DNA from: Ignavibacteria bacterium
GTDB taxonomy: Bacteria > Bacteroidota > Ignavibacteria > Kapaibacteriales > UBA4661
Reading direction: 5' to 3'
DNA: 64,000 nt
Assembly (NCBI GenBank): GCA_013298775.1
Contig: JAAFIV010000007.1
Location: 1-64,000 of the forward strand
The first letter of the stretch is position 1. The number at the start of each line of letters is the position of its first letter. The notes below the pieces were generated by a model. It had not been told where the DNA came from, ran no database searches, and saw nothing but the letters and a program-made list of their open reading frames with translations. A program made the position numbers and the translations under genes. Shown in pieces: positions 4,388 through 59,107 of this stretch.

Positions 4388-4524
4388 TAAGTGATTTTAG
4401 CTGGAAAGAATCCTTAGCACATTTCGTGGCGCAGACATTCTTGTCTGTGTTTGTCGCCTGAAACCCGCGCCAGAACTCACAGACAAGAATGTCTGTGCCA
4501 CTACTGAAGAACAAAAATCACTTA
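4388..4524. repeat. Palindromic element A3
   Basis: The inner arms at 4426-4449 and 4478-4501 carry the CAGACATTCTTGTCTG core. Outer arms are TAAGTGATTTT (from 4388) and AAAAATCACTTA (4513-4524). Read on the minus strand, the right flank continues with the same tail (TAATC, GTAATAGACT) as elements A1 and A2, so it is the same family inserted in the opposite orientation. It fills the roughly 300-bp spacer between fbaB and the oligopeptidase gene. Confidence 0.88.
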
Positions 4525-13477: not shown

Positions 13478-13648
13478 TTGAAGTTTAGATAAAATTCTGA
13501 AAGCCGCATAAAACTATGACCTGCACGAAGCCCTCACCCAACCCTCTCCCAGGGGGAGAGGGCTTCAGAACCCTCATAGAATCTTGCCCTTCTCCCTCTG
13601 GGAGAAGGGTTGGGATGAGGGCGGCGCAAGAGTTTATCTAAACTTCAA
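13478..13648. repeat. Palindromic element B3
   Basis: Perfect 16-bp outer arms, TTGAAGTTTAGATAAA at 13478-13493 and its complement at 13633-13648, enclose a complete CTCTCCC core with two hairpins. The same outer arm sequence recurs at 48636 and 49013-49031 around a much longer, multiply nested content. This and the next element occupy most of the 500-bp gap between the two kinase genes. Confidence 0.92.
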
Positions 13649-13670
13649 GTAAAAGTTCAGGGGTACTACA

Positions 13671-13835
13671 TGATTTCAGTTGGAAAGAATCCCTAACTCA
13701 TGAGTGGCACAGACATTCTTGTCTGTGAGTGTTAGTGAGGGGTTCAGGCGGAAAACACAGACAAAAATGTCTGTGCCATTATCTGTCTTTTTACCTTTTC
13801 AACTCAATGCTGTGCCTAATTTTTAACTGAAATCA
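13671..13835. repeat. Palindromic element A4
   Basis: Outer arms TGATTTCAGTT (13671-13681) and AACTGAAATCA (13825-13835) are perfect. The inner arms at 13705-13727 and 13756-13778 carry CAGACATTCTTGTCTGTG with one mismatch. AGTTCAGG occurs as a direct repeat just outside both ends (from about 13654 and 13844). An isolated piece of module C (AAAGTCCTCACAATCCTGA) follows at about 13860. Confidence 0.87.
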
Positions 13836-13944
13836 TTTAGCACCAGTTCAGGATAGAAAAAGTCCTCACAATCCTGATGTTCTCAGTTTTACCCGTATTT
13901 TAATCAGCCTTATCTCAAGTACGTTTGCTTTTTGCATATTCCTA

Positions 13945-24060: not shown

Positions 24061-24231
24061 TAGACATTATACATATTAGTGATTTTTGCTCTTCAATAGT
24101 GGCTTGAGACTTCTTGTCTGTGAGTGTTGGTGCGGGTTTCAGGCGGCAAACACAGACAAGAAGTCTCAAGCCACTGAAGCCAGTATTTACGCCATTTCTG
24201 GACTTTCAGAGCTTAATCTGTATAATGTCTA
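24061..24231. repeat. Palindromic element A2 (nested)
   Basis: This is a near-copy of A1. The inner 25-bp arms at 24098-24122 and 24151-24175 are perfect. The outer arms TAGACATTATACATATTA (24061-24078) and TAATCTGTATAATGTCTA (24214-24231) pair at 17 of 18 positions. The copy fills the space between ispE and the lipid-kinase gene, which diverge from it. Confidence 0.92.
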
Positions 24232-39092: not shown

Positions 39093-39106
39093 GTACTCCA
39101 GCAAAT

Positions 39107-39184
39107 AGTGGCACAGACATTTTTGTCTGTGAGTGTTAGTGCGGGATTCAGGTGGAGAACACAGACAAGAATGTCTGTGCCACT
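39107..39184. repeat. Palindromic element A7
   Basis: The arms at 39107-39131 and 39160-39184 pair over 25 bp with one mismatch; the core is CAGACATTTTTGTCTG against CAGACAAGAATGTCTG. The loop has TGCGGGATTCAGGTGG, as in the other A copies. Confidence 0.92.
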
Positions 39185-39237
39185 ACTGTTTTTTACCTAC
39201 ATCCAACAAAAACCTACTACTTTTTGTTCATTCGCCC

Positions 39238-42762: not shown

Positions 42763-43062
42763 GAAAGTGTCTGAACATTACGCTGCCCTCATCCCAACCC
42801 TTCTCCCAAAGGGAGAAGGGCAAGACATAAAGCCACATCTGGAACCCTCTCCCTTTGGGAGAAGCAGGGCTGTTAAGTTCTGTTCCCGTGAAGCCCTCAC
42901 CCAACCCTCTCCCAGAAGGAGAGGGCTTCAGAAACGGCTCTGTGTCTTGCCCTTCTCCTTCTGGGAGAAGGGTTGGGATGAGGGCAAACACGAGAACTTA
43001 ACAGCCCTGCTTTGGGAGAGGGCAGGGTGAGGGGATTACAGGTAAATTTTCAGACACTTTCT
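42762..43062. repeat. Palindromic element B4, one element inserted in another
   Basis: The outer arms AGAAAGTGTCTGA (42762-42774) and its complement (43050-43062) enclose a CTCTCCC element. This element is split at its second hairpin by another complete palindrome with perfect 17-bp arms, GCAGGGCTGTTAAGTTC (42864-42880) and its complement (42994-43010). CTTTGGGAGA is present on both sides of the insert (42853-42862 and 43010-43019). The first base lies in the stop codon of the propeller kinase gene. Confidence 0.93.
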
Positions 43063-48560: not shown

Positions 48561-48635
48561 GGTTTTTCGCATGAAAATTGCACAAAATGTGAAGTTCTTT
48601 TCGATATGTGAAGATTACTTTGAGGATGAACCTTG

Positions 48636-49031
48636 TTGAAGTTTAGATAAAATTGCCCGTTCTCGCCCTCATCCCCCGCCTTCTCCCAGAGGGAGAAGGA
48701 GCTAAGACAAAGGAAATCAAACGCTTCTGAAGCCCTCTCCCTCTGGGAGCTAATAAGGGTAGGTATTCCAGAAGGCGCGTAAAAACTGATGTTCTGTGTG
48801 AGGGTCTCAATTCTTATTGAGGCTCTCACTTTCTTCACAGAGAAGAAGAAGTGAGAGCCTCACACCTGGTGTAAAATCTTAGTCGTGTATTTTCGATGTG
48901 TTGTCATAAACACGAGATTTTATGAGCCTTCCAGCAATGCCTACCCTTATCAGCCCTCTGGGAGAGGTTGGGTGAGGGCAAACGCAGAAGCAAGATTTTA
49001 TGCGGTTTGCAGAATTTTATCTCAACTTCAA
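48636..49031. repeat. Palindromic element B5, triple nested
   Basis: Outer arms TTGAAGTTTAGATAAAATT (48636-48654) and its near-complement (49013-49031) enclose CTCTCCC repeats. The second hairpin is split by a palindrome with arms TAAGGGTAGGTATTCCAGAA (from 48754) and its near-complement (48926-48949). CCCTCTGGGAG is found on both sides of that insert (48739-48749 and 48954-48964). Within the insert lies a third, D-family palindrome at 48796-48865 (GTGTGAGGGTCTCAA ... GTGAGAGCCTCACAC). Confidence 0.92.
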
Positions 49032-49051
49032 ACCTTGAGGATGATATACTT

Positions 49052-49190
49052 ATTCCCTTTCGGGTGAAAGATTGGAATGCCTCGCCCAAGCGGTTTCTTG
49101 ACCGTCCGGTGAGTGATAACCGCAAGAGTCTGCCGGACGGTCAAGAAACCGCTTGGGCGAAAGCAACGGTTGTATCTCCCGAAAGGGAAT
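49052..49190. repeat. Palindromic element F (perfect 28-bp inner arms)
   Basis: Outer arms ATTCCCTTTCGGG (49052-49064) and its perfect complement (49178-49190). Inner arms 49082-49109 and 49133-49160 are perfect over 28 bp (TCGCCCAAGCGGTTTC at the left end). The small loop has AGTGATAACCGCAAGAG. It begins about twenty bases after element B5. Confidence 0.93.
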
Positions 49191-49323
49191 AAAATTTCAT
49201 TGGCATTCTTTATTTTTTATGTTGCCAGTGCTTTATTGGCGTTGTAAGTTTGCGCTGTTCATTTGTGCTGTTCAATACAGTATTTTTTGATGATAATTTC
49301 ACCATTTTTGACGTTCTACGCTC

Positions 49324-53363: not shown

Positions 53364-53395
53364 AAAAAGTTAAAAATTACTTTCCATTCTTTAAT

Positions 53396-53474
53396 AGTGG
53401 CACAGACATTCCTGTCTGTGAGTATTGGTGCGGGATTCAGGCGGCAAAACACAGACAAGAATGTCTGTGCCACT
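53396..53474. repeat. Palindromic element A8
   Basis: Arms 53396-53420 and 53450-53474 pair over 25 bp with one mismatch; CTTTA and TAAAG extend the stem. The loop has the family consensus TGCGGGATTCAGGCGG. Confidence 0.92.
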
Positions 53475-53501
53475 AAAGGCAAGCCTCTACAACATAATTC
53501 T

Positions 53502-59008: not shown

Positions 59009-59107
59009 CGTGAGGCTCTCAATTCTTATTGAGGGTCTCACTATCGGTACATATTTGCTTTTCGTGGCGTAAAGTGAGACCCTCACTAGGAAGTGAGAGC
59101 CTCACAC
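59009..59107. repeat. Palindromic element D
   Basis: GTGAGGCTCTCAA and TTGAGGGTCTCAC at the left are mirrored by GTGAGACCCTCAC and GTGAGAGCCTCAC at the right around a 45-base centre. The same module lies nested inside B5. Confidence 0.88.

Follow-up and report, generated by a model that had tools for sequence, protein, structure and literature searches.

A nest of short MITE-like elements in a Kapaibacterium-like genome, with one element lying in the hairpin apex of another

The closest described systems are insertion sequences that target palindromic REPs. All copies of ISPsy8, ISPa11, ISPpu9/10 and ISRm22 enter the REP at exactly the same point, which for ISPsy8 is the symmetry axis of the hairpin, and ISRm22, an IS4-family element, has 10 of 10 copies in REPs (PMC1525189). 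IS4-family duplications are close to one helix turn in length (subgroup IS4, 10-13 bp; IS231, 10-12 bp), and some members of the family show a strong target preference (PMC2266710). Among bacterial MITEs, QMITE2 of Coxiella serves as a target of IS1111 (reviewed in PMC10969869).

The locus described here, at positions 48636-49031 of a 64,000-nucleotide stretch of DNA (the window), is a nest of short transposase-less MITE-like elements in a Kapaibacterium-like MAG. Its second element, L2, shares with the REP-targeting insertion sequences a fixed insertion point in a palindromic repeat. Those sequences, however, code for a transposase, lie in REPs of 21-65 bp and either make no duplication or one of 3 or 6 bp, whereas L2 is non-coding, 204 bp long and flanked by an 11-bp duplication, and its hairpin is carried by another mobile element, L1. 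The hairpins are of CCCTC type and lie inside larger elements; REPs are short GTAG/CGTC-tagged palindromes with a RAYT transposase. L2 is like the IS4 family in duplication length, but it has no transposase, its ends are unlike the IS4/IS231 signature, and no full-length partner was found. L1 and L2 are short, non-coding and intergenic, with inverted ends and target duplications, as are bacterial MITEs in general (PMC10969869), and L1, like QMITE2, is a MITE whose hairpin is a target for another element. In contrast to QMITE2/IS1111, the newcomer here is a palindromic MITE as well, and in a single genome two or more different families are seen to enter hairpin apices. Insertion sequences at a fixed point of REP hairpins are thus known, and the nested MITE version is new; no published description of nested bacterial MITEs in palindromes was found in the literature searched, which left most subscription papers outside its scope, and a search on the CCCTC hairpin sequence gave no relevant paper.

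The outer element and its setting

Three palindromes nested inside each other had been described at this locus, and all of the described features were found. DNA folding of the region gave z = -10.9, with none of 100 shuffles folding as well. The nest is flanked on the left by a response-regulator/histidine-kinase reading frame on the minus strand, named from its own sequence rather than by a family search, and on the right by a methyl-accepting chemotaxis gene. The outer element, L1, is 182 bp long when empty and has 19-bp inverted ends; in the window its outer arms (48636-48654 and 49013-49031) are 19 nt long and 95% complementary. The original prediction had overlooked the 6-bp duplication, ACCTTG, that flanks L1. 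Positions of all features are given in Table 1.

Table 1. Positions in the window of the parts of the nest and of the comparison locus
Feature	Position	Strand	Basis
L4 duplication, 9-10 bp (TTTGGGAGA + A/G)	42854-42863 / 43011-43020	+	flank comparison
L4, different element, ends GCAGGGCTGTTAAGTTCT, in CCCTTTGGGAG apex	42864-43010	+	end/copy comparison
Left target-site duplication of L1 (ACCTTG)	48630-48635	+	exact match to 49032-49037
L1 left part: inverted end TTGAAGTTTAGATAAAATT and CCCTC hairpins	48636-48749	+	solo 182-bp copies elsewhere in genome
Left CCCTC hairpin of L1, CCTTCTCCCAGAGGGAGAAGG	48679-48699	+	palindrome inspection
Left copy, 11-bp target duplication of L2 (CCCTCTGGGAG)	48739-48749	+	once per empty L1, twice in three nested copies
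L2 element, 204 bp, in apex of right CCCTC hairpin of L1	48750-48953	+	seven own-genome pairs; alignment
L2 left inverted end CTAATAAGGGTAGGTATTCCAGAAGGCG	48750-48777	+	arm inspection, end search
L3 hairpin cluster (GTGAGGGTCTCA / GTGAGAGCCTCAC), interior module of L2	~48796-48865	+	present in 7/7 own L2 copies
L2 right inverted end CTGATAAGGGTAGGCATTGCTGGAAGGC (reverse strand)	48926-48953	-	arm inspection, end search
Right copy, 11-bp target duplication of L2 (CCCTCTGGGAG, exact)	48954-48964	+	once per empty L1, twice in nested copies
L1 right part, terminating in AATTTTATCTCAACTTCAA	48965-49031	+	arms and copy alignment
Right target-site duplication of L1 (ACCTTG)	49032-49037	+	flank comparison

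A search of the genome assembly (5.19 Mb in 95 contigs) with the region as query gave 76 matches. The full nest was present at two more places, on contigs C3 and C38, and at many places positions 1-114 of the query were joined directly to positions 319-396, the 11-mer being common to both parts. L1 copies were aligned with their flanks, and exact flanking duplications of 5-9 bp, mostly 6, were found in 14 of 19 (examples are ACCTTG in the window, ATCGTT, TTAGGA, AATAAA and TTCACTCAT); 2000 shuffles of the left and right flanks gave no duplication of 5 bp or more. L1 is a mobile element; congeneric species carry it too, as does another genus of the family. A 171-bp copy of an L1 subfamily with a 6-bp duplication, GTAAAA, lies at window positions 13478-13648, and more copies of about 170 bp occur elsewhere in the genome.

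L1 and L2 both have terminal inverted repeats, as expected of a MITE, and both are flanked by target-site duplications (5-9 bp for L1; 11 bp for L2, or 13 bp in the copy on C10). Both occur as dispersed multiple copies of about 180-245 bp that lack a transposase gene. The locus is very probably a nest of non-autonomous DNA transposons (MITEs), in which L2 has entered a hairpin apex of L1.

Other palindromes were observed in the window. Adjoining the nest, at 49050-49192, is a palindrome with outer TTATTCCCTTTCGGG arms and an inner perfect pair of 28-nt arms (TCGCCCAAGCGGTTTCTTGACCGTCCGG), and CACAGACAAGAATGTCTGTG-type hairpins, whose arms are 28-29 nt apart, recur at 162-239, 4426-4501, 13705-13778, 24098-24175, 39106-39185 and 53395-53475.

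The second element and its target

The ends of L2 (CTRAYAAGGGTAGGTATT) were used in an end search and formed exactly seven pairs in the genome. The unit that they delimit is discrete, measures about 204-245 bp and keeps the same ends from one host element to another. All seven pairs were placed in the apex of a CTCCCTCTGGGAG-type CCCTC hairpin, three in L1 and four in other host palindromes. Because only 532 apex-like sites (with up to three mismatches) exist in the 5.19-Mb genome, well below 1% of its length, this placement is not due to chance, and selection of the apex by L2 is shown statistically. Within the window, CCCTCTGGGAG occurs 14 times with at most one mismatch, against 0.34 occurrences expected.

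The claim that L2 sits in a hairpin apex with an 11-bp repeat on each side was borne out by the 182-bp empty L1 copies, which hold a single CCCTCTGGGAG, whereas the three nested copies hold it twice. In the copy on C16 a local variant, CCCTTTGGGAG, is duplicated on both sides of L2, and in the relative G007 (contigs C7 and C116) TTCTTTGGGAG stands on both sides, as read across two contig ends that share end sequence. Since such host-specific variants are duplicated on both sides, the repeats are true target-site duplications. The copy on C10 is inserted in reverse, with a 13-bp duplication, CTCCCAGAGGGAG, on each side, and on contig C35 of G007 L2 sits in a different, unrelated palindrome with near-identical 10-bp flanks, CCTTGACAAG and CCTTGTCAAG. 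Two observations here, besides two on the mobiliser given below, count against the nested-MITE reading: some L2 targets (C4, C16) are imperfect hairpins only, and the flanking 11-mers differ by 1-2 bases in three copies (C38, C4 and C11).

It is improbable that L2, with CCCTCTGGGAG flanks of its own, was instead swapped between CCCTC hairpins by homologous recombination, without transposition. Six of the seven L2 copies in the genome do share a similar CCCTC type of host and face the same way relative to the target, and more than 500 similar sites are available, but shuffling of this kind is contradicted by the duplicated local variants, by the reversed copy with its own 13-bp duplication and by the copy in an unrelated palindrome; homologous recombination would, moreover, have had a stretch of only 11 bp to use, which is very short. 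At most, it would explain those copies that have neither duplicated local variants nor unrelated hosts.

Among contigs of other genomes, L2 ends were found only in G007, a Candidatus Kapaibacterium MAG of the same genus; Kapaibacterium belongs to Bacteroidota. One viral contig gave a match to the L2 ends, which lay within a coding gene without a second end and was rejected as chance. Among plasmids, a single match of 38 bp to the CCCTC core was obtained, in Acinetobacter.

With L2 removed, the nested L1 copies did not form a single group in a tree: the C38 copy grouped with a solo copy on C65 (support 0.965), and the window copy paired with a solo copy, C34a (support 0.876). The L2 sequences paired differently, C38 with C16 at 98.2% and the window with C4 at 96.5%, and both C16 and C4 carry L2 in another host. 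As the L1 and L2 trees disagree, L1 and L2 were not simply copied together as one block. In agreement with the independent insertions originally proposed, this indicates that L2 inserted at the same base pair at least twice, the sequences being short and the tree support moderate rather than decisive.

Copies lacking the inner layer, which had been suggested as a check, were found both as the 182-bp empty L1 copies of the same genome and in comparison with relatives (one genome per species), where G005, the closest relative, shows synteny to the left and right of the nested C3 copy with an empty site in between, the element being absent. Flanks of six L2 loci were searched in G005, and only the C3 copy was syntenic on both sides. 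At the window locus the left flank is conserved in G005 to about position 48612 and is followed by unrelated DNA; the right flank is on another contig, so there is no clean empty site there. What follows the conserved left flank in G005, beside the orthologous left gene, is a different palindrome (GGAGTGCGGAATTTAATTCCGC...GCGGAATGAACATTCCGCACTCC).

That the nest is instead a selected RNA or DNA structure, such as a bidirectional terminator between the two genes, kept for a host function, is very improbable. The fold is indeed very stable and a terminator-like stem is present at 48798-48829, but the number of terminator-like stems is near the shuffle level (2 against 1.2), the region has no Rfam match, and the element is absent beside the orthologous left gene in the closest relative. 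There is no need to assume any host function.

The third layer

The L3 hairpins, which fold as DNA with z = -5.7, were found by alignment at the same place in all L2 copies of the genome, varying in the number of units; the window L2 is without one hairpin unit that other copies have. Hairpins like L3 are found on their own at many places as well (window positions 59010-59105 are one example), and one L2 copy in G007 carries a CCCTC core in place of L3. Since seven of seven own-genome L2 copies contain L3, L3 joined L2 before L2 spread, and the two arrived together at this locus. The three successive insertions originally envisaged here were therefore not upheld. The nesting order had been taken to give the relative age of the three layers, and this stands for L1 before L2 with L3, but not for L3 as a separate and youngest insertion; judged from the copies compared, the order is L1 and then L2 with L3, and the nesting does not date L3 as the youngest.

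Slippage probably acts inside the L3 part. Although this variation in unit number agrees with growth in place, by which a single palindrome would have acquired its inner layers and its 11-bp repeat through slippage in replication or through template switching, mobile elements playing no part, such an origin is scarcely credible for a discrete unit of constant ends in different and unrelated hosts, with solo L1 copies entirely without L2.

Candidate mobilisers and hairpin apices as targets

Neither the genome nor the genus yielded a full-length element with the ends of L1 or L2, and none of the three DDE_Tnp_1 genes of the genome has L1 or L2 ends. An intact IS4-family element of 1179 bp is present on contig C14 (~80601-81779), encoding a 351-aa transposase that matches NF033591 with 203 bits and has a readable YREK motif; it is flanked by a 9-bp duplication, GGTACAGAC. 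This element was observed to be inserted within another palindromic MITE, of a family seen also at window positions 13662-13844. A 152-bp MITE on the same contig (C14:41331-41482) has ends that match the IS4-family element and a 9-bp duplication, GAGGTTCGC, and is nested within L1, in the right arm of one of its copies. The matching ends point to an IS4-family enzyme as the probable driver of at least one nested MITE family. In the L1 copy that hosts this MITE, the CT run at the apex is expanded.

For L2 the duplication of 11-13 bp agrees with the IS4-family value of about 10 bp, but its ends, CTRAYAAGGG, do not carry the signature of the IS4-family subgroups with duplications of 10-13 bp, -AATR in IS4 and CAT in IS231 (PMC2266710 Table 1). 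As length fits and signature does not, we can only infer the enzyme class for L2. The data show two steps: L1 inserted between the two genes, duplicating 6 bp of target, and L2, already with its L3 hairpins, then entered L1 at the dyad of its right CCCTC hairpin, duplicating 11 bp. As a proposed third element of this history, L2 may have been mobilised in trans by an IS4-family-type DDE transposase whose duplications span one helix turn, and this transposase may prefer the apex by reading either its sequence (CCCTCTGGGAG) or an extruded hairpin. Both the responsible enzyme and whether structure or sequence is read are what we infer here.

A second window locus, best read as about 42784-43050, had been thought to share the insertion point and duplication size of L2. 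It proved to hold a different family, L4, with a duplication of 9-10 bp and not 11. Fifteen paired copies of L4 were compared, with duplications of 9-11 bp where these were clear (GTCTGCAAA, GTAAGGAAT, ATGAAGAGG and CCTTGATAAAG). A stem of at least 5 was present at the duplicated bases in 9 of the 15 reconstructed targets, compared with 8% for sites taken at random from the window (binomial, 4e-7), a value to be read with many of the 15 sharing a CCCCCTTGATAAAGGGGG host and hence not all independent. The same stem test on L1 targets gave a weak trend only (4 of 14; 0.02). It is possible, though we hold this tentatively, that several unrelated MITE families (L2 with duplications of 11-13 bp, L4 with 9-11 bp) choose hairpin apices by structure and not by sequence, in which case each palindrome would become the next landing site and growth would proceed in the manner of nested dolls.

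The filled and empty versions of one target are both available in these copies, and the duplication is readable because the hosts differ at single bases; this set makes apex-directed insertion testable. The nesting explains how large imperfect palindromes are assembled in the spacers between genes. Should it be structure and not sequence that is read, these elements would open a way to transposases that are guided by the shape of DNA.
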